Virus record (IMG/VR): IMGVR_UViG_3300021425_000161
Location: 1 to 26,410 of that record
DNA from: a virus
Length of the DNA: 26,410 bases
Direction: 5' to 3' (one strand)
A program made the translations under genes and the position numbers. The notes below the pieces were generated by a model, which saw only the letters and a list, made by a program, of their open reading frames with translations, did no database searches and was not told where the DNA came from. Positions 1,704 through 22,900 of this stretch are shown piece by piece. Position 1 is the first letter of the stretch. Each line of letters starts with the position of its first letter.

Positions 1704-3611
1704 ATGTCATTAGTTAACGTATCATCACTAGATTTTAATGATATACGACAATCTATCATAAGCTTTTTAAGGTCTGATGGTAGATTTACAGATTATGATT
1801 TTGAAGGATCTAATTTCAGAGTTCTTTTAGATACTCTAGCATATAACACTTATATTAGCTCATATAATGCTAATATGTTAACTAATGAAGTGTTTTTGGA
1901 TGGTGCTACCTTAAGGGAAAATGTAGTATCTATTGCAAGAAATATTGGATATTTACCAAGATCTGTAAGGTCATCTAAAGCAAAGGTATCTTTTTATGTT
2001 GATCTGACAGAGTATGATCAAAATCCAATTTCCGTCATAGTAAAAAAAGGAATTATAGCATCATCTTCAGACGGAACACTTTTAAATTCATTCACATATT
2101 CAATCCCAGATGATATTAGATCTAGAGTATCTGGTAAATTGGCAGAATTTAAAGATATTGAAATTTTTGAAGGTAATTATATTGAGGAGTATTTTACTGT
2201 AGATTCTCTCAGTAAAACCCAAAGATTTATTTTACGTAATAATAACATAGATACAACCACAATAAGAGTAGTTGTAAGAGATAGTAAAGCGAGTAGTAAT
2301 TCAATAGTATATAAGTTTGCGGATAATATTACAAATGTAAGACCTTCAGATAAGGTATTCTTCATCAATGAAATTGAAGATAGTAAATATGAATTGATAT
2401 TTGGTGATGGAACTTTTGGTAGTGCTTTATCTGATAAAAATTATATCATTGTTTCTTATGTTAGAACAAGGGGTGATGCTGCGAATGGAGTTAGAAATTT
2501 TGAGTTTAATGGAATATTAACAGATAATAATGGAAATCCTTTAGATATTGATGTTCCAATAATAACTACAATAGAATCTAGTGATTATGGATCTCCTATA
2601 GAATCAATATCATCAATAAAAAAATTCGCTCCTAGACTATATGCAAGTCAAAATAGAGCAGTAACAGCGTCAGATTATGAAACTTTATTACCATTAATAT
2701 ATCCAGAAGCTGAATCAGTATCTGTATTTGGTGGAGAAGATTTGAACCCACCAAAATTTGGGAAAGTTTTTATTACAGTAAAACCAAAAAATGGTACTTA
2801 CTTATCAAATTTACTCAAAGATTCCTTAAAACAAAAATTAAAACAATATTCAGTTGCTGGAATAATACCAGAATTTGTTGATTTAAAATATCTTTATATT
2901 GAATATGATTCTGCAGTTTATTATAATATAAATCGTGGTTATTCTGGAACGATAAAGGAAAAATTACAATCCAATTTAGAGATTTACTCAAAATCTAAAG
3001 AACTTAATAATTATGGATCAAGATTCAAGTATAGTAAGTTTTTAAAATTGATTGATGATTCTTCAGAATCAATAACATCAAATATTACAAAAATATCAAT
3101 TAGAAGAGATTTGAAGATTGTTGGTGGTACTAATACACAGTATGAAATCTGCTTTGGTAATTCTTTTTATATAAAAAGAAAAAATGGGTTTAATATTAAG
3201 AGTAGTGGATTTGTCATTTCAGATGTTGCTGGAGTTGTATATTTGGCAGATAGACCAATAAATGACATTACTGGTGAATTATTTGTATTTAAATTAATAT
3301 CAAAATCAAATCCAGTGATTGTAAAAGATAAAATTGGAATTATAAACTATAAATCTGGAGAGATTAACATAAATTATTTAAATATTATATCAACATCAAA
3401 GACTGATATTTCTGGAGATAATATTATACAAATATCTGCTATTCCAGAATCGAATGATATTGTTGGGAAGCAAGATTTGTATTTACAGTTAGACACAACT
3501 TCTTCATCAATAAATTTAATAAACGACACAATTACTTCTGGAACTAATCTATCTGGATCAGAATATATAGTTACATCTAGCTACCTAAACGAAGACTTAG
3601 TAAGAATATAA
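1704..3611 (+). CDS. 6: Baseplate wedge subunit gp6
   Basis: A 635-aa baseplate wedge protein; T4 gp6 is 660 aa. In T4, gp6 dimers form the continuous inner ring of the baseplate and connect wedges, binding gp7, gp25 and gp53. Family features are the N-terminal FNDIRQSIISFLRSDGRFTD and DFEGSNFRVLLDTLAYNTYI blocks with FLDGATLRENVVSIARNIGY (residues about 10-90), FGDGTFG near residue 233, and the AVTASDYETLLPLIYPEAES block from about residue 319, typical of gpJ/gp6-like baseplate proteins. The C-terminal 200 residues are Ser/Thr/Asn-rich beta-type sequence. It starts immediately after the gp25 stop and ends four bases before the giant gene, so the three genes probably share one transcript. There is no frame disruption. 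Confidence 0.93.
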   Translation: MSLVNVSSLDFNDIRQSIISFLRSDGRFTDYDFEGSNFRVLLDTLAYNTYISSYNANMLTNEVFLDGATLRENVVSIARNIGYLPRSVRSSKAKVSFYVDLTEYDQNPISVIVKKGIIASSSDGTLLNSFTYSIPDDIRSRVSGKLAEFKDIEIFEGNYIEEYFTVDSLSKTQRFILRNNNIDTTTIRVVVRDSKASSNSIVYKFADNITNVRPSDKVFFINEIEDSKYELIFGDGTFGSALSDKNYIIVSYVRTRGDAANGVRNFEFNGILTDNNGNPLDIDVPIITTIESSDYGSPIESISSIKKFAPRLYASQNRAVTASDYETLLPLIYPEAESVSVFGGEDLNPPKFGKVFITVKPKNGTYLSNLLKDSLKQKLKQYSVAGIIPEFVDLKYLYIEYDSAVYYNINRGYSGTIKEKLQSNLEIYSKSKELNNYGSRFKYSKFLKLIDDSSESITSNITKISIRRDLKIVGGTNTQYEICFGNSFYIKRKNGFNIKSSGFVISDVAGVVYLADRPINDITGELFVFKLISKSNPVIVKDKIGIINYKSGEININYLNIISTSKTDISGDNIIQISAIPESNDIVGKQDLYLQLDTTSSSINLINDTITSGTNLSGSEYIVTSSYLNEDLVRI

Positions 3612-3615
3612 GAAC

Positions 3616-6600
3616 ATGAAAAATAGAGTACAGATTCAAAACATAGTTACAGACCAACAACCATCCTACGTAAAGGAATCTTATTCAGATTTTATACAGC
3701 TTCTGAAGGATTATTATAAGTCTCTGGAGTTTTCTGGTGGTCCAACAAACATTCTCAATAATATTAATGATTATACAAAATTAGAAAACATATCTGAGAT
3801 TGTATACTATACAGAACTTTCTTCAGATATCAATATCAATACAAAAACAATATCTGTTACTAATACTGAAGGTTTTCCAATCAAAAATGGATTAATTAAA
3901 ATTGATGATGAAATTATTTTTTATGATTCAAAAACAAAAACAGAATTTTTAGGATGTAAAAGAGGATTTAGTGGCATAACTGGATATTCTAAAGACGATT
4001 TTAATTTTTCAACTTCCTTTAGAAAAAAACATTTATCAAATGCAGTTGTATACAATTTAAATTCTTTATTCTTATTTGAACTGTATAAAAAGTTTAAATC
4101 CCAGTATACACCAGGATTTGAAGAAATTGATTTTTATGATGAATTAAATGAAAAAATACTAGTATCTAGAATTAAAGATTTTTACTCATCAAAAGGTACT
4201 GATAGATCATTTGAAATCTTATTTAATATTGTTTGGGGTGTAGATAGTAAAATAATAAGACCGAGAGACTTTTTAATCCAACCTTCCGATGCAGATTTTA
4301 GAATAACAAGAAAGATTGTTGTACAAGAATTTGATGGAGATCCTCTTATTCTTTCTGGGAGAACATTGTTTGAAGATGTAAATGGTATAGAAAAAAGTGC
4401 TTTTTCTACTATAATAAGCTCAGAACTTGTAATTAGTGAGGGTATAAAATATTACACTTTAACTCTAGATTATAATCCAGATATAGAATTTTTTAATTTT
4501 AATGTTCATAGTAAAACAAAAGTAACTGACAATGCTATTGCTGGACAAACATATCTTGATGTTGATTCAACATTGGGATTCCCAAATTCTGGAATTTTTC
4601 AATTTGAAGATAATGGAGTTTTAAGATCAGTAGAATATAATGGAAAAAATGACAATCAATTTTTCAATTTGATTTTACCAGTCAATTTAATGTCTGGTAC
4701 TGATATTTTAGATGATAGATTTGCATACTCCTTTGATGATAACGATAACTTAATTAAAGTGAGAATTAGGGGTGTTCTTGGAGATATAAATTTTGATAGA
4801 GAAGATACTTATTTTTATGACAATGGAGATAGTGTAAATATTACTTCTTTAGGGAAAGAGAGTGATAAAAAAATTCACTCTACTTGGTTTTTAAATTGTT
4901 CACCAAAATATACAGTAAAATCTCTGTTTAAAGTTACAGAAAAGTTAAATGGCATTTCTCAGTACAGAGTAGAAACTTTTGATGATAACATTTTCAGAGC
5001 TGGTGATACATTCACACTAAGATCTAGTACTGGTGAAGAATATACTAGTTCTGTTATAAGTTTTTCAAATACAAAAGTATTTGATATCAATGTAACAGAA
5101 ACATTGGATTTGTCCAAAAAGTACACTATTAAGAGAAATATTTCTAAACCAGAATTTCTTTTTGATAACAATCTAAACATAGTTTCATCCAATATCCAAA
5201 ATGTTTATATTGACAAAAAAGATACCTATGTAAGATCCACTTCACTACCATCTTACTTATCTAGGGGTGTTGCAGATAATAGTTTAACAGTAAAGTTTTC
5301 CACTAATATTCCAATTCCAACTGAAGAATTAGTAATTGGAAATCATCCATTTATTAGTGGAGATTCTATTTTTTATTCATATGATGGAAATTCTGGTCTC
5401 AATATACCAGAAGGACAATACTTTGTAAGCAGACTTAATGATAGTACAATAAAACTTGCTTCCAGTAGATCAAATATCAGATCCCATACATATTTGAGTA
5501 TTTTTGGAACAGCAATAGATAATAAAATTATTCTAACAAAATTTTACAATAAAAAAATAAATCCACAAGATATAATAAGAAAGTACCCTGAAGTAATCAA
5601 TGAGGCAGAAGAATCTGAAAAAATAACAAACCCTGGTGCAATTGGATCATTTTTAAATGGTGTTGAGTTAATAAATTATAAGTCTTCAGATGCTGTATAC
5701 TACGGAAAGATAGAATCCATTATTCCCTCTTCTTCTGGAGATTCTAACTATGACGTTATAAATCCACCAAAGTTAGAGATCATTGACACTGGAATAGGTG
5801 GTTCTTCTGGATTTGGTACTGGTGCATATGCAACTGTTAATGTTAGAGGAGGATTGAAAAGGGTTGATATTATAGATCCTGGATTTGGTTATGAAGTTGA
5901 ACCTGTTGTAACAATTAATGGTGGAAACGGATCTGGCGCTAATATAAAGTGTAACCTAAAAGCAGTAAAAAATGAGGTATTTTTTAATACTTCTAGCTTA
6001 TATAATCAATTAGATTTAACTACTGGTACTATAGACTTTAAGACATTTAATAAATTTAAAAACTATGAACCAGTAATTTATAATACACTAAAACAAGATA
6101 CAATTGGTGGATTAATTGATGGATCAATATATTATATTGTATCGGAAGATGGAATAACTGCAAATCTATATAATACATTTGAAGATTCTACTGCTGGAAT
6201 AAACACCATACAATTTACAAGTTATGGAGATGGTATTCATAAAATTACATCAGTGAATAAAAAAAATATTATATCTTCTGTTGATGTTTTAAGTTCTGGT
6301 TCAAATTATACAAACAAAATTTTATATTTTACTTCAGACAATATTAATATAAACTTTGATACTATCAGTATAAAAGATCATGGATATTCCGATAAAGAAA
6401 TAGTAATATTTAATAGTGATGGTATTCTTCCCACTGGATTATCATCTACCTCAGAGTATTATGTTAAAAAAGTAAATGAAGACGAATTTAAAGTTTATGA
6501 ATTAAATGATAATGATCTTGGAAAAGATTTTAATTACAATAACAATTTTAGTACACATTTTTTTGATTTTGGTAGTGGAATTCATCAAGTATCATATCAA

Positions 6601-9600
6601 AAAATTACCCTAAAAGTTGAAGCACCTATTGGAATAAACACAGTTAGTAGTGAACTATTTACTGCTAAATTAAATCCAATTTTCACTGGAGAGATTTTTT
6701 CAACTTCCATGAAAAATAATGGAAGTAACTATGGCGATGGCACAATTATAAATTATAATCGAGTACCAGTAGTAAATCTATACAATGGTGAAAATGCTAA
6801 ACTCTTACCAACAGTTTCTGATAGTGGTAAAATTATTGGAGTAACTGTTATTGATGGTGGTTCAAATTATATATCAGCACCAGAATTAAAAGTCATTGGA
6901 AATGGTTTTAATGCTATTTTGACTCCAATTATAGTTGATGGAAAAATTGAATCTGTTAAAATTTTAAATAGTGGGTTTGGATATGATAAAAACACATCAA
7001 TACAAATTTTATCTAATGGTTTTGGTGCAAAATTTGATGTTAGATTACAATCGTGGACAATAAATTTAGTGGAAAGATTATTTGATACAGAATCAATTAA
7101 AGTTGATGATGGTATAATATATGAATCTAAAGATATTTCTAAAGAATTAGCATATGGTCATGCATTTACTCCTAGGGGAATTAGAGAGCAGTGCCTAGCA
7201 ACTTCTCTGGATAATGATGGAAATCTTATATTTAAACAAGATTTAAATAATGATAGTGATACTATCAAATATCATTCTCCTATAGTTGGATGGGCATATG
7301 ATGGAAATCCAATATATGGACCTTATGGTTATGAAAATATTGAGGGTGGATCGGTTAAACAGATGATAAGTGGGTATGATTTAGAACAAACACTATCAAA
7401 TAGACCACCAGAATCTATCTTCCCTAATGGATACTTTGTTGAAGATTATGTATTTACTAATAGTGGAGATTTGGATAAGAATAACGGAAGATTTTGCAAA
7501 ACCCCAGAGTTTCCAAATGGAACATATGCATATTTTTCAACATTTAATACAACTAAAGAATCTACTGGTAATTATAATGGATTTTTAAAACCAAGATTTC
7601 CATATGTTATAGGAAATACATATAACTCAAAACCAGTTAACTATAATTTTGATGATTTTGCAAACTTATCTAGAAAAAAAGTAGACGAAAATAATTGGTT
7701 TAGATATACTTCCAGTTTTGGTTTTTCAAAAAATAACACTTTTTACGAAGGTTTAGTAAGTCCAGAAATTTTTAAGAATGTACTTCCAACTATAACAGAT
7801 ACCAGTAGTGGTTTTATTGAAGTGTTGAATGTTGTATCTGGCGGAGAAAATTATGCCGCAGGCGATCAAATTTATTTTGAAAACGAAGGAACTTTTGGAA
7901 GTGGTGCTTTTGCAGTTGTAAAATCAGTATCTGGAGCAGGAATTGGAACAATTACCTTTAACCAAGATGTTTATTCTGATATAGAATATATTAGATTAGA
8001 TAAAAATGGAAGATTTTTAGGTATTTCGAGTAATCATATAGACATAAATGATAATGATGTTGTAATTATTGATAATTCAAATATAATATCTACAAAGTTT
8101 AATGGTGATGCAAAATCGGTAAAAAGTGTAAAAAATAATCCGCTGTCATTTGCACAAGATTTAGAAGATTCTACTCAAACTGGAATAATTACATATATAC
8201 GAGTTAATGGTTCTCTAAATTCTACATTATCAATTGGAGACATTTATGAATCAAATGAAGAGAGATTTAAGATTTTAAATACTTATAGCAAAAATTATAC
8301 CTTAAAGGTTGAGAGATTATATTCAGCATCAATTGGAAGTACACATTCCCAAGGTGATATTCTTACAGAATTGAACAGAAAAATTGTTGTAACTACTGGT
8401 TTAAATACAGATAAATCATATAATTCCAATAATGAATATTATTTTAATCCAAAAGAATCTGTAATATTTCCATCAGAAAATTTATTATTATATTCATATC
8501 CAGTACCAGTATCAGAATTTCCAGGAACGCCTTGGAGTTTTAATACTACTGATCTATCAAGTACTGTAGAATATTTTGCAGAATCTCCGTTAAAAAATAA
8601 AAATCAAGCAGCTAAAGTTAGTATTAAAAATACTACAGGAGGTTCAGATTTTTATCTGTATGGATATAATGGAGTAAGTTTATCAAATGAAGAAAATGTT
8701 TTTTCTGTATTTTTAAAGGGAGAAAATGGTGGTGAATCATTATATATTATAGTTGATGATGGTTCTTCTTATTATGGTCAGCTAATAACACTAAGTAATG
8801 AATATAGAAGATATTCTTTCAAGGTAACAACATCTTCTGGTTTACATAACTTTAGAGTTGGTACTTATGGTCCAGGAGGATTCACTTTAAATTCCACACC
8901 AACTTTTTATGCCTGGGGATATCAAGTTGAGCGTGGAAAATTAAGTAATTATTATGAAAATTATGGAACATTTCTTCAAAGATCCGATAACAAGAGTGGA
9001 TTGTTATATTTAAATATTGAAGGACTAGATTTAGTAAGAACTGAAGATACTATTCCAAATACATTATATTTGCCAAATCATAAATTTAATCTTAATGATA
9101 ACTTAATTTATAAAATAAACAATACAGACACTCCAATAAATGTATCATATGCTTCAACCACCGAAGATCTTATTGATGTAAATCCTGTATATGTTGTACC
9201 ATACTCTAAAGATTATATTGGACTTTCTACACAAAAAGTTGGTATAGGGTCAACAAATGAGTATATTGGTATTGGTTCTAATGTATTTGAATTGATTAGA
9301 TATAATGACTACGGTTCTGGTGAGAATCATCATTTAAAAACAAATAAAGATAATATTATAAGATCAGATATTGCAAAAAAATATGCTAATCTGGTGACAA
9401 AATCTCCACATGGATTAGTTGCTGGTGATACAATAAATGTGAATTTATCTAGCAATAAAATAAGGACATTTAATGTATCTTATGACAATTTGGTATATAG
9501 GACTAAAATTAATCGAGTAGAATTTAATGCTTCTTCTGTTGATGTAGATTATAATACAATAAATTTACCAAACCATGAATTTAAAACAGGGGATAAAATA

Positions 9601-12600
9601 ATCTACAATTCAGAACTTCCATCAATTGGATTGGAGGATTCTAAAATTTATTACATAGTATCTATTAATTCAAATACAATTGGGTTGACCAATCAATATT
9701 ATAAAGAAATTACTGAATTGGATTCTTCTATTTTAGTTAACATACAATCTCAACAAGACGGTAAAATATCACTTATAAATCCAGAAATAGATGCTTATAG
9801 GAATGAAACACTGAGATTTGATCTATCTGATAGATCATTACAATATAATGAAAATGGATCATTTACATTTGATTTTTATCGTGATCCTAATTTTACTGAT
9901 AGATATTATTCATCATCAGATAAAACATCAACATTTAACGTAAAGACTGTTGGCGAAATTGGTTCAGATGGTGCCTATGTAGAATTAAAAATTGATGTTG
10001 ATACACCAAAAAATTTATATTATAAGTTAACACCAATTAACTTGCCAAATACACCTCTTCCAAAATTAAAAGCAAAAGTAGATTTTACAAATATAGAAAA
10101 TTCAAGTTCAATACAAATTTTAAATAGTGTATACTCTGGTAATAATATAATTACTGGAATAACAACTACTTCTTTCACTTACCCATTAAGGAAAAATCCA
10201 GAACAATCAATATATACGGAAAATGATGGAATACTTTCATATAATACTAAAAAAGGAATAGGTCCGATAAATGAAGTAACTTTGGTATCAGGTGGAAGAA
10301 ACTACAAAACCTTACCATATGTTAGCAAAGTTCAATCGAATTTAGGTTCTGGTGCTATTTTCTTACCATTTTCATCTAGTATTGGTAAAATAGACTCTGT
10401 TAGATTATCAAGTCTTGGTCTTGATTATCCATCAGATAGAACTCTAAGACCATCTGCTGTTTTCCCAACAACATATAAAATTGAACCACTATCAAAATTT
10501 AAAAATATAAAAATCTCTTCTTTTGGAACAAATTATTTTGTACCTCCACAATTAGTCGTTCTTGATGGATTTACTGGAAGGGTAAATTCAGAAGCACAAC
10601 TCGAATATGAAATTGGTGATACTGAGGTTTCTATTATTAGAAATACTACTGGGTTATATAATGTTACTCCCAAAATTTTACCAGTTAACAACCCAAATGG
10701 TATAAGAATTAGTAATATTTCTTTTGATAAACTCACTAATGATGTTACAGTTTCTTTTGCAGTTACTTTTACATCTGCTGAAGATTTTCCTTTCAATATT
10801 GGTGATAGAGTAATAATTGAGAACACAAACATTGATCTAAATGTTGGTGGTAAGGGTTTCAATTCTTCTGCGTATGGTTATACATTATTTAAAATTAAGC
10901 AATCAAATCCAAATATTGGCGGAGAATTCCCTAGTATAGTTTATAATATTTCAGATGTACTTAAATTTGGAGAAGACCCAGGAATTTATGATGAATTTGA
11001 ATCATTTGGTACAGCAACACCAGAATCATATTTCCCAACATTTGACATTAGTTTAGAAAAAGGTTTCTTCAATAAAAATGAAATTGTTTTATATGAAGAC
11101 AATAGTGGAGTCGTTCAAAAATACGATATAAACAATGAGTATATTAAAATCAGATCTAATGTAAGGTTTAAACCTGGGGATATAATATATGGACAATCTT
11201 CAAAAAATTTGGCTCTAATTTCTCTCGATCTTGGATCAGATGGAGATTATAAAGTATCTTCAAACAGTATAATTAGAGAGGGGTGGACAAAAGAAACTGG
11301 TAAATTAAATACAAACTTACAAAGAATTCAAGACAATGATTATTATCAGTATTTTTCATACTCAGTAAAATCACCAATAGATTACAATACTTGGAATCCT
11401 TTAGTGAGTAATTTAACACATACTGTAGGATTTAAAAAGTTTAGTGACTTAGTTATAGATGCGCCAAATCTTAATTTTGAAGGAATGCCAACCAATCAAG
11501 ATAATAATATTGTTATTGCAATTTCAGATTTAAATTCGGTTGTTAACACAAATTCAACTAAAGATTTTGATATTGCCAGAGAAAAAAGTATTAGGGTAGA
11601 TGATTCTCTCGTATCCAATGAAATATTGTTCAATTTACCATTTTTGGCAGAATATCGTGAATTTATTGGTAATAGAGTTTTAACTATAGATGATATTAGT
11701 GATCAATTTGATTCAAATAAAAAATCTTTTGAATTATTTGAAAAAAATAATCCTATTTTTGAAGTATCTTTTGATGCAACAGATTCTAATACGGTATTAT
11801 TATCACAAAATAATATAAACCTAGGAAATCACTTTTTTGTTAGTGGTGAAGAGGTAGAATATATACCACATAATCAAGATCCAAATAATGGAATACAAAT
11901 AGCACCAATAAATTGGCCAGGGATAGGAATAACATCAAGATTGCCTTCTAGATTTTACATAATTAAAGAAGATAATCAAAAAATAAGTATAGCAGCAACT
12001 ATTGGTGATTCTTTACAATTTAATCCAAACAGAGTAGATATTGTTGGACTTGGTGCTGGAGATACTCACAAATTTAGATCTATTGATGCAAATAACAGAC
12101 TACTAATATCAATAAATGGATCTATTCAATCACCAATAGTTGGATCTGCATATACAATATCAAACACAAATACCATTGGTATTGGTGATACAAATATTTC
12201 AGTAGATAATATTCAATTTATAAGTTCTGGAAATTTATTGCAAGTAGATGATGAAATCTTAAAGGTAAAATCAGTAAATGGTTTAATAAATCAGATAAAT
12301 GTTGAGAGGTCTGTAGTTGGAACTTTAGAAAGTTCTCATAGTTCTAACCAAATAATAACAAAACTCTCTGGTAATTTTAACATAGTAGGGAATAAATTAT
12401 ATTTCCCAGAACCAATTTGGGGTAAACTTCCTGTAGGATTTGGAACTACTGCAAGTTCAGCAAATGAAATAGACTATACTGGAATTACAACATCTTCGAA
12501 ATTTAGTGGGAGAGTATTCTTAAGATCTTCTCTAAACTTCTTATTTACTAATGATTTTGAAAAAGCTTATGCTAATAATTATGTTTATGATGACATCTCA

Positions 12601-14658
12601 AATCAATTTACTGGAATAACATCAACATTTATTTTAAAGTATCAAGATAATAGTATTACTAATATACCATATTCAAATACTATTGTTCTAATTGATGGTA
12701 TATTCCAAGGTCCCCAAAGAATTACCACTCCAAAATATTCAGTCTACGGTGATTATAAACTTTTTAATGATGGTGGAAATTTAAAACTTGGTTTTAATAT
12801 CAATCCCACAGATCCAACAATAACTAAAGACATAAATGTAAATCTTTTACCAAAAGGTGGTGTAATAGTTAGTGTAGGATCTACAGAAGGATTTGGATAT
12901 CAACCACTAGTAAGTGCTGGTGGAACAGCAATAATTAGTTCATTAGGCGCTCTTACCTCTATTGCTATTGGTAACACTGGATCTGGATATAGATCTGGTT
13001 TACAAACAGTAAATGTTGGTTTAAGAACAGATTCTAATGAAGTTGTATATTTTGGAGAAGCGGTAGTCAATGGTGGATATGTTACTTCAGTAAATATAAC
13101 TAATCCTCCACCAGCAATATATGATCAATTAAATCCACCAGAAGTTATTTTTGATGCACCATTTGGGTATACCAATTTACCATTAATATACTCTAATGGT
13201 TCTAGTGGAATTGGTACAGGAGCAATAATAGATTTAATTCCAAGTAATGATGGATCAATAAACACTTTTGAAATTAAAAATTTTGGATATGGTTACAATG
13301 AAAATGACTTACTTACTATTTCTACTGGGGGAACTGTAGGAATACAAACATTAACAGGAATATCAAACTTTAATCCATTTGAACTGATTGTTACTGAAGT
13401 ATTTAGATCACAGTTTTCTGGTTGGAATGTTGGAGAATTTTTAGTATTGGATGACATTTCAAAATACTTTAATGGTATAAGAAGATTGTTCCCATTACAG
13501 ATAGATGGTGAAGACATATCATTCTATGCAAAAACAAGTTCTGGAATTAGCTTACAGTCAAATTTACTAGTATTTGTTAATGATGTTTTACAAACACCAG
13601 GAGAAGGATATCAATTTACTGGCGGAAGTAGAATTAGATTCTCAGAAGCACCTAAAGGACCACTAGTTGGATTTAGTACGGTTGGAGATACTGTAAAAAT
13701 TCTTGTATATACTGGAACATCCGAAATTGATGTTAAATTGGTAAAAGTTCTTCCTACAGTAAAAATTGGAGACAATGTAAAGATTTTTAGTGACATAGAT
13801 TCAAACTTAACTCAAGATGAAAGACTAGTTATAGATGTAAAGTCTGCAGACACTATTATAACAAATAACTATGCAGATGTTGGTGTAGTCTTAGATGAAT
13901 TGTATGAAAGACCAATTAGCTGGATTAGGCAGACTGAAGATATAATAATTGATAACAATTTTATTGGTAAGGATAGAGTTAATTATGAACCAATAATTAA
14001 CCCAAGCACAAATATCCTCCATGGAATTGGTATTAATTCTGATTATGTTTATGTATTTGATACAAATTTATTTAATGTGTCTGCTGAAGGTATAGATCCT
14101 TCAGAACAAAAAATAATTGAAATTATTCCAACAGATGAGTTAGTCACTGCTCAAGCAGAAGCAGTTTTAGATGCTAATGGAACCATAGACACTATAAATC
14201 TTACGAATCCTGGACTTGGTTATACTTCTGCTCCAACAATCACAATTCAAAAACCATTTATTGATGGATCACAGGCAACAGCTTTTGCATTGATGGCAGG
14301 AAGTAGTGTAAATTCAGTAAATGTTAGTTATGGAGGAACGAATTATTTTAATGGTCCAATAAAAACATTATCAATTTATAGTCAAGGGTCTGGATTCCCA
14401 CCACTGTTTGGTAATGAGACAATAATGAATAAAGCCAAACTGAGTTCAGTAACTGGAGTTGGAAGAGGGGCGAGTGTTGATATAGTAGTAGATCAAGAAA
14501 CATTTATCACATCTTTAATAGATGTTCCCGACAAAGGAGTTAATTATTCTGTTGGTGATATATTAGAGGTTAAAGTTTATGATAATGTGGGACTTGCAAA
14601 TTCATATAGAAGATGGCCTTTGGGAGAGTCAATTAAATTGAACCTCCGCCAGTGTTAA
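3616..14658 (+). CDS. Giant modular baseplate/virion structural protein (3,680 aa), YHYH-domain type, candidate gp7 position
   Basis: This gene fills 42% of the window and sits between gp6 and gp8, where T4 has gp7 (1,032 aa). The N-terminal 240 residues form a distinct domain: YSDFIQLLKDYYKSLEFSGG, a DDEIIFYDSKT module near residue 95, and FYSSKGTDRSFEILF followed by IIRPRDFLIQPSDADF. Beyond this the protein is a long chain of beta-rich modules. It has at least thirteen GxxY motifs (residues 756 to 3641), about six NH-x-F/GD modules (from residues 576, 921, 1821, about 1930, 1986 and 2738), a YHYH-type domain at about 1216-1312 and a lectin-like domain at about 1625-1785. There is no signal peptide or membrane segment. 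The last residues (KLNLRQC) look unrelated to the family end; the expected C-terminus continues in the -1 frame from 14637. It is probably a baseplate wedge or peripheral baseplate protein. The gp7 role is inferred from position only. Confidence 0.85.
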   Translation: MKNRVQIQNIVTDQQPSYVKESYSDFIQLLKDYYKSLEFSGGPTNILNNINDYTKLENISEIVYYTELSSDININTKTISVTNTEGFPIKNGLIKIDDEIIFYDSKTKTEFLGCKRGFSGITGYSKDDFNFSTSFRKKHLSNAVVYNLNSLFLFELYKKFKSQYTPGFEEIDFYDELNEKILVSRIKDFYSSKGTDRSFEILFNIVWGVDSKIIRPRDFLIQPSDADFRITRKIVVQEFDGDPLILSGRTLFEDVNGIEKSAFSTIISSELVISEGIKYYTLTLDYNPDIEFFNFNVHSKTKVTDNAIAGQTYLDVDSTLGFPNSGIFQFEDNGVLRSVEYNGKNDNQFFNLILPVNLMSGTDILDDRFAYSFDDNDNLIKVRIRGVLGDINFDREDTYFYDNGDSVNITSLGKESDKKIHSTWFLNCSPKYTVKSLFKVTEKLNGISQYRVETFDDNIFRAGDTFTLRSSTGEEYTSSVISFSNTKVFDINVTETLDLSKKYTIKRNISKPEFLFDNNLNIVSSNIQNVYIDKKDTYVRSTSLPSYLSRGVADNSLTVKFSTNIPIPTEELVIGNHPFISGDSIFYSYDGNSGLNIPEGQYFVSRLNDSTIKLASSRSNIRSHTYLSIFGTAIDNKIILTKFYNKKINPQDIIRKYPEVINEAEESEKITNPGAIGSFLNGVELINYKSSDAVYYGKIESIIPSSSGDSNYDVINPPKLEIIDTGIGGSSGFGTGAYATVNVRGGLKRVDIIDPGFGYEVEPVVTINGGNGSGANIKCNLKAVKNEVFFNTSSLYNQLDLTTGTIDFKTFNKFKNYEPVIYNTLKQDTIGGLIDGSIYYIVSEDGITANLYNTFEDSTAGINTIQFTSYGDGIHKITSVNKKNIISSVDVLSSGSNYTNKILYFTSDNININFDTISIKDHGYSDKEIVIFNSDGILPTGLSSTSEYYVKKVNEDEFKVYELNDNDLGKDFNYNNNFSTHFFDFGSGIHQVSYQKITLKVEAPIGINTVSSELFTAKLNPIFTGEIFSTSMKNNGSNYGDGTIINYNRVPVVNLYNGENAKLLPTVSDSGKIIGVTVIDGGSNYISAPELKVIGNGFNAILTPIIVDGKIESVKILNSGFGYDKNTSIQILSNGFGAKFDVRLQSWTINLVERLFDTESIKVDDGIIYESKDISKELAYGHAFTPRGIREQCLATSLDNDGNLIFKQDLNNDSDTIKYHSPIVGWAYDGNPIYGPYGYENIEGGSVKQMISGYDLEQTLSNRPPESIFPNGYFVEDYVFTNSGDLDKNNGRFCKTPEFPNGTYAYFSTFNTTKESTGNYNGFLKPRFPYVIGNTYNSKPVNYNFDDFANLSRKKVDENNWFRYTSSFGFSKNNTFYEGLVSPEIFKNVLPTITDTSSGFIEVLNVVSGGENYAAGDQIYFENEGTFGSGAFAVVKSVSGAGIGTITFNQDVYSDIEYIRLDKNGRFLGISSNHIDINDNDVVIIDNSNIISTKFNGDAKSVKSVKNNPLSFAQDLEDSTQTGIITYIRVNGSLNSTLSIGDIYESNEERFKILNTYSKNYTLKVERLYSASIGSTHSQGDILTELNRKIVVTTGLNTDKSYNSNNEYYFNPKESVIFPSENLLLYSYPVPVSEFPGTPWSFNTTDLSSTVEYFAESPLKNKNQAAKVSIKNTTGGSDFYLYGYNGVSLSNEENVFSVFLKGENGGESLYIIVDDGSSYYGQLITLSNEYRRYSFKVTTSSGLHNFRVGTYGPGGFTLNSTPTFYAWGYQVERGKLSNYYENYGTFLQRSDNKSGLLYLNIEGLDLVRTEDTIPNTLYLPNHKFNLNDNLIYKINNTDTPINVSYASTTEDLIDVNPVYVVPYSKDYIGLSTQKVGIGSTNEYIGIGSNVFELIRYNDYGSGENHHLKTNKDNIIRSDIAKKYANLVTKSPHGLVAGDTINVNLSSNKIRTFNVSYDNLVYRTKINRVEFNASSVDVDYNTINLPNHEFKTGDKIIYNSELPSIGLEDSKIYYIVSINSNTIGLTNQYYKEITELDSSILVNIQSQQDGKISLINPEIDAYRNETLRFDLSDRSLQYNENGSFTFDFYRDPNFTDRYYSSSDKTSTFNVKTVGEIGSDGAYVELKIDVDTPKNLYYKLTPINLPNTPLPKLKAKVDFTNIENSSSIQILNSVYSGNNIITGITTTSFTYPLRKNPEQSIYTENDGILSYNTKKGIGPINEVTLVSGGRNYKTLPYVSKVQSNLGSGAIFLPFSSSIGKIDSVRLSSLGLDYPSDRTLRPSAVFPTTYKIEPLSKFKNIKISSFGTNYFVPPQLVVLDGFTGRVNSEAQLEYEIGDTEVSIIRNTTGLYNVTPKILPVNNPNGIRISNISFDKLTNDVTVSFAVTFTSAEDFPFNIGDRVIIENTNIDLNVGGKGFNSSAYGYTLFKIKQSNPNIGGEFPSIVYNISDVLKFGEDPGIYDEFESFGTATPESYFPTFDISLEKGFFNKNEIVLYEDNSGVVQKYDINNEYIKIRSNVRFKPGDIIYGQSSKNLALISLDLGSDGDYKVSSNSIIREGWTKETGKLNTNLQRIQDNDYYQYFSYSVKSPIDYNTWNPLVSNLTHTVGFKKFSDLVIDAPNLNFEGMPTNQDNNIVIAISDLNSVVNTNSTKDFDIAREKSIRVDDSLVSNEILFNLPFLAEYREFIGNRVLTIDDISDQFDSNKKSFELFEKNNPIFEVSFDATDSNTVLLSQNNINLGNHFFVSGEEVEYIPHNQDPNNGIQIAPINWPGIGITSRLPSRFYIIKEDNQKISIAATIGDSLQFNPNRVDIVGLGAGDTHKFRSIDANNRLLISINGSIQSPIVGSAYTISNTNTIGIGDTNISVDNIQFISSGNLLQVDDEILKVKSVNGLINQINVERSVVGTLESSHSSNQIITKLSGNFNIVGNKLYFPEPIWGKLPVGFGTTASSANEIDYTGITTSSKFSGRVFLRSSLNFLFTNDFEKAYANNYVYDDISNQFTGITSTFILKYQDNSITNIPYSNTIVLIDGIFQGPQRITTPKYSVYGDYKLFNDGGNLKLGFNINPTDPTITKDINVNLLPKGGVIVSVGSTEGFGYQPLVSAGGTAIISSLGALTSIAIGNTGSGYRSGLQTVNVGLRTDSNEVVYFGEAVVNGGYVTSVNITNPPPAIYDQLNPPEVIFDAPFGYTNLPLIYSNGSSGIGTGAIIDLIPSNDGSINTFEIKNFGYGYNENDLLTISTGGTVGIQTLTGISNFNPFELIVTEVFRSQFSGWNVGEFLVLDDISKYFNGIRRLFPLQIDGEDISFYAKTSSGISLQSNLLVFVNDVLQTPGEGYQFTGGSRIRFSEAPKGPLVGFSTVGDTVKILVYTGTSEIDVKLVKVLPTVKIGDNVKIFSDIDSNLTQDERLVIDVKSADTIITNNYADVGVVLDELYERPISWIRQTEDIIIDNNFIGKDRVNYEPIINPSTNILHGIGINSDYVYVFDTNLFNVSAEGIDPSEQKIIEIIPTDELVTAQAEAVLDANGTIDTINLTNPGLGYTSAPTITIQKPFIDGSQATAFALMAGSSVNSVNVSYGGTNYFNGPIKTLSIYSQGSGFPPLFGNETIMNKAKLSSVTGVGRGASVDIVVDQETFITSLIDVPDKGVNYSVGDILEVKVYDNVGLANSYRRWPLGESIKLNLRQC
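7261..7551 (+). other. YHYH-type domain inside the giant protein
   Basis: Residues about 1216-1312 contain KYHSPIVGWAYDGNPIYGPY, then LDKNNGRFC and FPNGTYAYF. The H-S-P, DGNPIYGPYGY, NNGRF and GTYAYF landmarks in this order are those of the YHYH family (named for its Tyr-His-Tyr-His motif), here with YHSP and TYAYF in the motif positions. The domain is known from bacterial secreted proteins and from cyanophage structural proteins. Its biochemical role is not established. Confidence 0.75.
8488..8970 (+). other. Lectin/carbohydrate-binding-like beta-sandwich inside the giant protein
   Basis: Residues about 1625-1785 have the layout of a galactose-binding-like or concanavalin-like module: a Trp-containing start (GTPWSF), VFSVFLKGENGGESLYIIVD, a strand with YRRYSFKVT, and an end of FYAWGYQVERGKLSNYYENY. 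The final WGxQxExG...YxxT signature is common at the end of such modules in phage structural and tail-fibre proteins. Sugar binding is inferred from the fold-type signature; no ligand can be named. Confidence 0.6.
14622..14628 (+). promoter_or_regulatory. Shine-Dalgarno-like GGGAGAG upstream of the frameshift window
   Basis: GGGAGAG lies inside the giant gene, about 8 nt before the only stretch (14637-14655) where its frame and the downstream -1 frame are both open. Internal Shine-Dalgarno sequences about 10-14 nt upstream of a slip site stimulate -1 frameshifting in bacteria. Here it may equally be chance coding of Leu-Gly-Glu-Ser. Confidence 0.25.
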
Positions 14659-15293
14659 TTTCTCCACCATGGAGAAGCACTGAAGAATCTATTTTTGTAA
14701 ACTATTTTGGAGATTATGGCGTAATAGTTGGATTTACTACTTCAAGACCTTCAGAATTTGCAAATCAATATTATCTTTACCTAGACTTGTTCATTCCAAT
14801 GGACTCTCCATTAAGAAAACAAGGTATATATCAAGCTGGAATATCTACTGGAGATTATTTTAATATTACTGATACCATATTTGGTGATCCAAATGGGGGT
14901 AGAATTTCTTTACCTTACACATTTACTACACCTTCTGGTCCACAACCAGATCCTATTGGAATATCAAGCATATTTACTGATATGGTCGTACAATGTTCTG
15001 ATTGGTCTGATACTACAGTATCAATACCATCTGGTTTATCAGGTTTATCTGTAGGTATAACAACAACAGTTAGACGTGTTGAGGTTATATTATCAAACTT
15101 AGCTTCTGGAGAAAATCCTAGTCAGACTGGAACTATAGAATTTTTTGGAAATTATATTTGGGGCAAAGTAGACTTGTCTAGAAGAATTAGAGCAAAAGAT
15201 TTTACTGCTTCTTCTACACAACAATCAGGAATAGGTACAAATCCAGTTTTACGTAGAAAAAACCCATTAAAATATGATGGTTACTTTGTCTAA
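14652..15293 (+). CDS. C-terminal part of the giant structural protein, displaced into the -1 frame (213 aa from GTG)
   Basis: This frame is -1 relative to the giant gene, is open from 14637 (after a TAA at 14634-14636) and first offers a GTG at 14652; the first in-frame ATG comes only about 50 codons later. No Shine-Dalgarno sequence precedes the GTG, so independent initiation is unlikely. Read from 14640, the sequence EPPPVLISPPWRSTEES would follow naturally on the giant protein. The piece holds FGDYGVIVGFTTS and YLDLFIPMDSPLR, then RVEVILSNLAS, then FFGNYIWGKVDLSRRIRAKD and a basic end ..RRKNPLKYDGYFV. This is the C-terminal block I associate with long cyanophage structural proteins. One base missing near 14637-14655, a real split, or frameshifted translation would each explain it. 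A joined product would be about 3,890 aa. Two late promoter motifs follow the stop. Confidence 0.75.
   Translation: MLISPPWRSTEESIFVNYFGDYGVIVGFTTSRPSEFANQYYLYLDLFIPMDSPLRKQGIYQAGISTGDYFNITDTIFGDPNGGRISLPYTFTTPSGPQPDPIGISSIFTDMVVQCSDWSDTTVSIPSGLSGLSVGITTTVRRVEVILSNLASGENPSQTGTIEFFGNYIWGKVDLSRRIRAKDFTASSTQQSGIGTNPVLRRKNPLKYDGYFV
14660..14676 (+). promoter_or_regulatory. Perfect 7-bp hairpin just after the giant gene's stop
   Basis: TTCTCCA (14660-14666) and TGGAGAA (14670-14676) form a perfect 7-bp stem with a 3-nt loop, beginning two bases after the TAA at 14656-14658. No T-run follows, so it is not a standard terminator. It lies directly downstream of the frame-transition window, where a structure could promote ribosome slippage. 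It also encodes the PPW of the continuing frame, so it may be incidental. Confidence 0.4.
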
Positions 15294-15327: not shown

Positions 15328-16911
15328 ATGGCTGCAATCATAACTGATTATTTGAGAATAAACAATGCCAAATCTTTTGTAAAAGATATTAGAGATACGA
15401 ATCAGTCCTACTATACTTTTGTAGGACTACCAAATTCCGATTCTATAAGTCCATCTTGGGATAGTAACCCAATTTCACCAAAAGATTCTTTCGATGATGA
15501 TAATTCATATTGGGAATCATTAATAGCATTAAAAAAAATATCACCAGATGATATAAGACTTGTTGTTAGAAAAATTCAATGGGAGTCTGGTACAATATAT
15601 GATTCATATAGACATGACATTACTAGGACAAATTTATCTAAACCTTCTAACAAAACAAGTTTATATTCTTCAAATTTTTATGTAATCAATAGTCAATTTA
15701 GGGTATATATTTGTTTAAATAATGGCACAGATCCAGAAAATACAAGTGGAAAACCATCTCTAGATGAACCAAATTTTACTGACTTAGAACCAAGGGTAGC
15801 GGGAACTAGTGGTGATGGTTATATATGGAAGTATTTGTTTACAGTCAATCCCAATGATATTGTTAAGTTTGACTCATTAAACTTTATTCCAGTCCCAATT
15901 GATTGGGAAACAAACTCAGAATATAATAATATAAGGAATAATGCATTATCTAGTGGTCAATTAAAGAATATTTTTATAAAGGATAGGGGTCTTTTAGTTG
16001 GACCACCAAATATAACATATACAAATGTACCAATATCTGGTGATGGTACGGGAGCAGAATGTACTATAGTTGTAAATAATGATTCAAAAGTAGAATCTAT
16101 TACTGTATCTAAAGGTGGTAGTGGTTATACTTTTGCTAGAGTCGATTTAGTTGCAGGATCAGTACCTTTAGGTGCATCACCACCAATTTTTGATGTTATT
16201 ATTCCACCAACAAATGGACACGGATATGATATATACAGGGAATTGGGATCTACAAACGTATTACTCTATTCGCGAATAGAGAATGATGTTCAGAATCCAG
16301 ATTTTGTTACTGGAACCAAAATATCTAGAATTGGAATAATTAAGAACCCATTAGCATATAATTCAAACAATATACTTACAGACGATAGAGTAAGTTCTCT
16401 AAACTCAATAAAAGTTGTTGGTTTAGCTCCAAACGAAGATGATTATAAGACAACTAGATATGAACCAAATTCAATAATAAGACAAACAATTGGTACTGGT
16501 GTTACTGCCGTTGGTAGAGTTCTTTCATACGACAGTCAAACAGGAATTTTAAAGTATTGGCAGGACAGATCTATAGTTGGATTCAATACTGATGGATCTA
16601 TAGATGATCGACCAACTTATGGATTATCAATAAACAAATTTACATCTGATGTATCTACTGGTGGAGAACTAAAAATTGTTGGTGGATCAAGCGACCTATA
16701 TATTGATAGTGGGTTTGGTCAGCAAAATAATCCTGGTATAAGTACTGTCATAAATAATAAAACATATTATTTGGGGCAGAATTTTGTAAATGGTGTTGCT
16801 TTACCCGAGGTAGAAAAGTATTCTGGGAACATAATTTATGTTGATAATAGACCAGCAATTACCAGATCAGTGAATCAAAGAGAAGACATTAAAGTTGTAT
16901 TACAATTCTAA
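15328..16911 (+). CDS. 8: Baseplate wedge subunit gp8
   Basis: A 527-aa protein with the layout of cyanophage gp8; T4 gp8 is 334 aa, so this is longer. In T4, gp8 is a dimeric wedge protein that binds gp7, gp10 and gp53. Family landmarks are the start MAAIITDYLRINNAKSFVKD, SYYTFVGLPNS, WDSNPISPKDSF, the YDSYRHDITRTNLSKPSNKT block near residues 90-112, NFYVINSQFRVYICLNNGTD, then LEPRVAGTSGDGYIWKYLFT near residues 152-172. After residue 210 comes an added beta-rich part with SGDGTGAECTIVVNNDSKVE and a GSGY unit at residue 264 like the repeats of the giant protein. A double late promoter motif lies upstream; the Shine-Dalgarno sequence is weak. Only 14 bases separate it from the next gene. Confidence 0.9.
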   Translation: MAAIITDYLRINNAKSFVKDIRDTNQSYYTFVGLPNSDSISPSWDSNPISPKDSFDDDNSYWESLIALKKISPDDIRLVVRKIQWESGTIYDSYRHDITRTNLSKPSNKTSLYSSNFYVINSQFRVYICLNNGTDPENTSGKPSLDEPNFTDLEPRVAGTSGDGYIWKYLFTVNPNDIVKFDSLNFIPVPIDWETNSEYNNIRNNALSSGQLKNIFIKDRGLLVGPPNITYTNVPISGDGTGAECTIVVNNDSKVESITVSKGGSGYTFARVDLVAGSVPLGASPPIFDVIIPPTNGHGYDIYRELGSTNVLLYSRIENDVQNPDFVTGTKISRIGIIKNPLAYNSNNILTDDRVSSLNSIKVVGLAPNEDDYKTTRYEPNSIIRQTIGTGVTAVGRVLSYDSQTGILKYWQDRSIVGFNTDGSIDDRPTYGLSINKFTSDVSTGGELKIVGGSSDLYIDSGFGQQNNPGISTVINNKTYYLGQNFVNGVALPEVEKYSGNIIYVDNRPAITRSVNQREDIKVVLQF

Positions 16912-19900: not shown

Positions 19901-22900
19901 ATCCGTTAAAAATGATGTAAGAACATCAGATATAATTGATATAAGACCAAGAGTTATAGAATTTAGTGCATCATCTAGCAATTCACCATTTGAATTTTCT
20001 TCAAGGCAGTTTTCTGATTCTAATAATTCTGCAAAAAATATCCTAGCATCTGATGGGGCAATACGTTTAACATATTCACACTATTTGGGAAGAATTGATA
20101 AAATATTCCTACTAAAAACTGGTGAATTTCAATTAATAAGTGGTGTTCCTTCGGAAAATCCACTTCCACCATTAAATGTGGCAGATTCTATTGAAGTAGC
20201 ATCAATATCAATGCCACCATATCTATGCGATGTTGATGATTGTGAAATAAAATTAAATAAGTATAAGCGATACAGAATGGGGGATGTTGCGCAGTTAGAA
20301 GAAAGAATTAATAATTTAGAATACTATACTGCACTGTCACTTTTAGAGACAAAAACAGAGTCATTAACAATTCCAGATTCAAACGGTTTAACAAGATTTA
20401 AGTCTGGGATTTATGTTGATAATTTTAGTACTAGAAACACTCAAATCAAAACATCTAGAATAACAAACAGTATTGATCCAACAAACTTAGAACTAAGACC
20501 ATCACATTTTACCACACAAATTGACTTAGTTCTTGGTGGAAGATCTTTGCTGGGAATTGGAACTACATCAATTTCATTTGCAGACTCAGAAGATGTTAAT
20601 GACCTCATTGGATCAAATATAAGAAAAACTGGTCAATTATTAACATTAGATTATGATGAGGACGTTTATTTACAAAATCCATTTGCAACTAGAGTAGAAA
20701 ATGTAACACCATATCTAGTAACTAGTTATAAAGGATCAATTGATTTATTCCCATCATCAGATATTTGGATCGATCAAACAAGACTAAAACCACAATCAAT
20801 AACATCGGATGATTATACTCAAACAAGATTACAACTAGAGTATGCTGGTTATGATCCACAAACTGGTCTTGGTCCTGTTGTATGGGGTTCTTGGGAAACC
20901 ACTTGGACAGGATCTACTTCAACAAGCACCTCTAATACTACCAGAAGTAACTGGAGAGCACAAAGTAGTACTAGAAGAGGAAATTCAACAGTTAGAACTG
21001 ATGTTAGAGATGTAACTACAACAACTGTAACCACTACAACACAAACTGGTTTTGATCAAAGAGATGGTAAGAGATTAAGAGTATCTGAGCAAATTGAAAC
21101 CAAGAGTGAGGGAGACAGGGTAGTTAGCACTTCTGTTATTCCTTTCATGAGGTCTAGAAATATAGAATTTACTGCCAGAAGATTCAAGCCATACACAAGA
21201 TTATATGGATTTTTTGATGATCAAGATGTAAATAAGTTTATAATTCCAAAACTAATCGAGATTAGAATGATTAGAGGAATTTTTAATGTTGGCGATCTTG
21301 TTAGAGGTGTTAATGTTGGAAGAAGAGGAAGATTTTTCAGAGGAAGAAGATTATTCTTTGGTAGATCTTTACCAAGAATTACTTTTAGAGTTGCGAAATC
21401 AAACCATAAATATGGACCAATAGCAAATCCAACAGATATTTACGTACAAAGTCCATACGACCAAAATTATACAGTACCAGATGAATATTCCAGCTCATCT
21501 ATACTATTAAATGTAGACACTAGATCGTTATCTGAAAATAATCAGTCTTTATACAGTGGATATATTGTTCCAGGTATGAGATTGAGGGGTCGAAATGGAG
21601 AAGCTGAAGTAGTTAATGTAAGATTATTTACTGATGCTATTGGATCTGTAAAGGGATCATTCTTTATTCCAAATCCAAATGTACCATCAAATCCAAGTTT
21701 TGAATCTGGAACTAAGGTCTTTAGATTAACAAATAGTTCAACTAATACTACTATTGGTGGATTGGTGGATAGTTTTGGTGAGGAGCAATATTTTGCTTCT
21801 GGAACAATGAATACTGTCCAGGAGACAATAAGATCCACAAGAAAAGCAAGATTTGAAGTTGTAGAGACTAGTGAGACTAGACCATCAGTACCAGACGTTC
21901 AAGTAACAACTGCAGTAACTGAAGATCAAGAAACTACTACTGTAACTATACCAGATCCACCACCTCCACCACCAGCACGACCACCAAGTGCAGTACGCCC
22001 ATCAGGAGGTACATTTAGAGGAAGAGTTAGTGTTAGACCACCAGTAGTAACACCAACACCACCTATAGTTGATAATACTAGTGGTGGAGGTGGTAATAGT
22101 CGTAGACAACCGAGGAGGCCTCCTCGCCCACAACCTAGAAGAAGACCACCTAGATCAGTTGCTCAAGCGCTTAGAAGAATGTTCAATAGGAGGGATCCTT
22201 TAGCTCAATCATTCTTTGTTTCAGAACCAAATGGTATTTTTGTAACATCTGTTGACGTTTATTTTAGAACAATAGACCCCATTCTACCAGTTGTAGTTCA
22301 ACTGAGACCCATGCAAAATGGATATCCAACAAACGAAGTATATCCATTTTCGGAAGTTACTTTAGATGTAACAGCGGGTAATGTTTTTGAATCTGAAGAT
22401 TCTTTAGATGCGACTGAAATAGTATTTCCATCTCCAGTATATTTGGAGGGTAATAAAGAACATGCTTTAGTTTTGTTAAGTGACTCCAATGAATATACGG
22501 TTTGGATTTCTAAGATGGGTGAAGTTGATGTTTCAACTTTACTTCAAGAAGAATCTAGACAAACTCTTGTTTCACAACAACCAGATTTGGGATCTCTATT
22601 TAAATCACAAAATGGATCCACATGGACTGCAAGTCAATATGAGGATTTGAAATTTAACCTTTATGCTGCATCATATAATATTAATTCTCCTGGTACAATA
22701 TCGTTCTTCAATCCAAGATTGGATTTAGGCAACGACCAAATAGCAACTTTAGTTTCAGATCCTTTAGAATACGAATCCAGAAAAGTAGTAATAACAACTA
22801 CAGATTTAGTAGATGTTTCATCAATAGAAGTTGGAAATACTATTAAACAGCAAGGAAATGATTTTGTAAGAGGAGATTATGTTGGTTATGGTGGATCTGC

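Follow-up and report, generated by a model that had tools for sequence, protein, structure and literature searches.

In bacteriophage T4, gp7 is a baseplate wedge protein of 119 kDa. The T4 wedge is put together in a strict order that requires gp7, and assembly stalls when a component is absent (PMC3004832). The homologues of the present locus in Kyanoviridae (PHROG 2885; Synechococcus phages Bellamy, S-SM2, and SynMITS9220M01, and the IMG/VR loci L013, L096, and L097) are annotated under the same name, but these cyanophage proteins are more than three times larger; each is encoded in one frame directly before gp8. Phage genes that use programmed -1 frameshifting, for example those of the tail assembly chaperones, show overlapping frames and a downstream hairpin.

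We analyzed a virus record of 26,410 bases (IMGVR_UViG_3300021425_000161, positions 1 to 26,410; hereafter, the window), in which the equally giant gp7 locus, also directly before gp8, is distributed over two frames. All coordinates given in a preliminary description of this DNA were recovered when the sequence was read again, and its statement that the 3,680-residue frame ends in an unrelated tail (KLNLRQC) was confirmed: the ORF closes with SIKLNLRQC and consists of approximately 3,674 genuine residues followed by the foreign, out-of-frame LNLRQC and the stop codon TAA (14656-14658). In the -1 frame, a TAA stop (14634-14636) is followed by a reading frame whose translation begins with IEPPPVLISPPWRSTEES, ends with NPLKYDGYFV, and contains no internal stop; counted from the GTG near its start, this ORF comprises 213 residues. 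The remaining genes of the window are each represented by an open ORF.

Table 1 Features of the gp7 locus and its surroundings in the window.
Feature	Position	Strand	Evidence
Baseplate wedge subunit upstream of gp7	1704-3611		phrog_219
gp7 (giant baseplate wedge initiator), N-terminal piece	3616-14658	+	ORF; tblastn; PHROG profile
16-nt deletion site	14627-14640	+	Anchor spacing; gap placements
AAATT, one remaining copy of a 5-nt direct repeat	14635-14639	+	L097 alignment
gp7 C-terminal domain, -1 frame, 218 aa	14637-15293	+	Translation; tblastn; phrog_2885 profile
GTG, sole candidate codon for reinitiation close to where the -1 piece begins	14652-14654	+	Codon scan; 1 nt before TAA
7-bp perfect hairpin (arms 14660-14666 / 14670-14676)	14660-14676	+	First arm begins 2 nt past the stop
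gp8 baseplate wedge subunit, intact neighbor	15328-16911	+	phrog_438

By homology, the two pieces are parts of gp7, the giant baseplate wedge protein of Kyanoviridae-like cyanomyoviruses. When used as tblastn queries, the upstream end (P0002) matched gp7 in 79 phage records and the -1 piece (P0001) matched the gp7 C-terminus in 13 Synechococcus phage records. Against the profile phrog_2885 (baseplate wedge subunit), the upstream end covered positions 3802-3992 (E 3e-28), and the -1 piece picked up where this match stopped, covering positions 3998-4175 (E 2e-9). Because of the 13 matching records and 75% identity to L013, the -1 piece is not a chance ORF, and the preliminary description had correctly recognized in it a real C-terminal block; the domain, which ends in NPxxRRKxPLKYxGY, is common to the window and Kyanoviridae gp7. 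The neighborhood also corresponds to that of gp7, with a baseplate wedge gene upstream (probably gp6) and gp8 downstream, and the order gp7, gp8, and giant structural protein was likewise found in Bellamy, S-SM2, and SynMITS9220M01. Solved structures gave no match to the gp7 C-terminal region by sequence search and no fold match to the junction region, for which the query model was of moderate quality.

For comparison, 80 IMG/VR loci were retrieved by a gp8 scan, and L002 and isolated phages were added; a locus was considered testable when it contained the C-terminal part as well as the upstream part (n = 75). In all 75, a single open frame runs through the junction and holds the two parts, so that the alignment of homologous giant proteins proposed in the preliminary description yields one continuous frame, as against two frames in the window. 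The four closest records with a full or near-full gp7 region carry a single ORF of 3,899-3,900 residues, followed by gp8. On this comparison, the window holds a broken copy of a gp7 family gene and not an intact member, split into ORFs of 3,680 and 213 residues. Neither a sister strain with the junction of the window (DNA patterns, IMG/VR) nor a DNA match to this junction among phages was found, and a literature search showed, in titles and abstracts, nothing pertinent to a split or frameshifted cyanophage gp7. Two further observations concern variation among these sequences. In L075 (3130-3230), gp7 is frameshifted elsewhere, further into the C-terminal domain, with the ORF ending at 3200 and the rest in another frame, which gives an indication of the background rate of gp7 breaks in such contigs. 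At 21986-22188 of the window, inside a structural gene of 2,589 residues, DNA similarity to close relatives is lost between flanks of 80-86%, and this stretch may be a local hypervariable or exchanged segment.

The difference at the gp7 junction amounts to 16 nt. Searching with a gapped DNA pattern, we found the junction anchors 59 nt apart in five contigs of the closest lineages and 43 nt apart in the window, so that both closest lineages exceed the window by 16 nt at this spot; across the approximately 26 kb that could be aligned with the nearest relatives (DNA identity about 80-82%), no other indel within a gene was both out of frame and clearly uncompensated. From RRW to PPVLI, the linker had an identical length in the 17 relatives aligned (17/17), and because of this invariance natural length drift is an unlikely explanation for the outlying linker of the window. 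The preliminary description had proposed that a single missing base between 14637 and 14655 separated the two frames; loss of one base was rejected, since the relatives carry 16 nt more.

The exact position of the gap can be drawn in several ways. Placements at 14627, 14630, and 14634-14639 fitted equally well against L097, in which two copies of AAATT bracket the missing 16 nt; the window keeps one of them, within the 14634-14639 block. When 16-nt segments were drawn at random from the window, only 0.7% had end homology of at least 5 nt, and the AAATT-flanked gap suggests replication slippage. This mechanism is put forward as a suggestion only, because L013 favors placements without AAATT (best at 14627 and 14630). 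The junction also lies within an imperfect palindrome matching at 10 of 12 positions (14623-14634 / 14636-14647; GGAGAGTCAATT / AATTGAACCTCC), which is absent from relatives and could be due to chance or reflect the process that produced the deletion. Quasi-palindrome-templated mutation was considered and found weak, as the substitutions of the window do not exactly copy the other arm of the inverted repeat.

The sequence downstream of the break showed no sign of relaxed selection in comparison with relatives: dN/dS was 0.19-0.23 for the C-terminal piece and 0.20-0.21 for upstream gp7 (3,660 codons). By this measure, the C-terminal piece is as constrained by purifying selection as the remainder of gp7, and it has not decayed, from which it follows that the break is recent, or is an artefact, or that the piece is still translated. 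In a structure model of an intact relative, of moderate quality (pLDDT 65), the junction falls where the last strand of a confidently predicted beta domain ends, just before a low-confidence linker (residues 105-112) that leads into another beta domain.

We consider it very probable that gp7 was disrupted in this one record by an out-of-frame 16-nt deletion, arising either as an ordinary mutation or as a sequencing or assembly error. Translation would lose the reading frame where the final beta strand of the penultimate domain ends and would stop after six foreign residues, and the conserved C-terminal domain would remain untranslated. The deletion would most likely have formed by strand slippage between the short direct repeats in a polymerase reaction, which may have taken place either in the phage or at the stage of library preparation and assembly.

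Among the other readings, recoding and a genuine split gene would make the two frames functional. The preliminary description had pointed to GGGAGAG (14621-14627) and the hairpin after the stop as an arrangement promoting programmed frameshifting, and it is conceivable that -1 ribosomal frameshifting, or bypassing as in T4 gene 60, joins the upstream ORF to the open -1 frame. Both elements are indeed present, but they are not conserved: L013 and L097 lack GGGAGAG and the first arm of the hairpin. Hairpins of 7 bp are common in the AT-rich sequence of the window (42, against 16-31 in simulated sequences), and we judged this one to be a chance feature; the folds at the site were unexceptional in two analyses (z -1.8 and z -1.5), and Rfam returned no meaningful match at the junction. 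As the preliminary description had already remarked, there is no canonical slippery heptamer; among all in-frame heptamers at 14631-14658, none fits X XXY YYZ, and the -1 stop at 14634 limits any shift to 22 nt (14637-14658). Bypassing of the gene 60 type is unlikely because the conserved coding sequence picks up again ahead of the stop, and a hop past this stop would omit conserved residues. The window thus shares overlapping frames and a downstream hairpin with phage genes that use programmed -1 frameshifting, but it differs from them in the missing slippery site, the missing conservation, and the continuous frame of its relatives, in which no recoding is needed. Programmed frameshifting was discarded on the heptamer, the -1 stop, the folds, and the conservation, recoding of either kind is extremely unlikely, and the preference already expressed for mutation or error is upheld by the single frame of the relatives. 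A split gene, in which truncated gp7 and a separate 213-residue protein produced by termination-reinitiation at the GTG assemble with each other, is also very unlikely, although several features are compatible with it. The break coincides with a predicted domain boundary, a single nucleotide separates the GTG from the stop, and the C-terminal piece retains purifying selection. That this GTG has no Shine-Dalgarno sequence, as previously noted, is true but does not discriminate, since a clear AGGAG motif precedes only one gene of the window (at 1001). Against reinitiation, all other genes of the window start with ATG, no relative is split, and five residues of the otherwise invariant linker would be gone, including the strand end placed there by the moderate model. 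Were it true, it would represent a two-piece version of the giant wedge protein, with the C-terminal 213 residues as a separate baseplate protein.

Within the readings that treat the locus as damaged, a sequence of two events, in which an in-frame loss of 15 nt preceded the loss of one base, is compatible with the alignment (16 = 15 + 1), but an in-frame allele of that kind is without precedent, given the constant linker length in the relatives; we regard this reading as very unlikely. The disruption by a 16-nt deletion preferred above includes as a sub-case the possibility that gp7 is intact in the phage population and that the gap arose only in amplification or assembly; the preferred reading covers either origin. 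We give this purely technical origin a probability somewhat below even, and genuine mutation and artefact appear roughly balanced. In favor of an artefact are the intact junction of every relative, the lack of relaxed selection downstream, and the damage that a real loss would do to a protein on whose counterpart wedge assembly depends in T4. Sequencing errors are usually of the homopolymer type, however, and the 16-nt gap is not; the other genes are clean over 26 kb, and breaks are rare in comparable contigs, with one in the gp7 C-terminus (L075) and none in the regions of gp8 and its neighbors that were checked, in loci that had been picked by their gp8 match. If the deletion is real, its presence in a consensus would be odd by analogy with T4, because gp7 is required there in the ordered assembly of the wedge (PMC3004832), and a phage with the disrupted allele might be defective.

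For annotation, the locus is best recorded as one disrupted gp7, not as a 3,680-residue protein plus a new protein of 213 residues, and it should not be listed among recoded genes. A deletion that proved real and fixed would show that a giant baseplate protein can lose its C-terminal domain or have it supplied separately.

Two other domains were noted within the giant gp7. A YHYH domain (PF14240) is located at 7255-7551 of the window (residues 1214-1312). A domain of about 85 residues (GPxxSLxIxxQGxGFPP...YDNVGL..RRW; 14336-14634) directly precedes the C-terminal domain; it occurs in approximately 20 IMG/VR relatives (L014-L032 and L002) and is missing from the isolated cyanophages compared, in which the C-terminal domain directly follows the GYT repeat.
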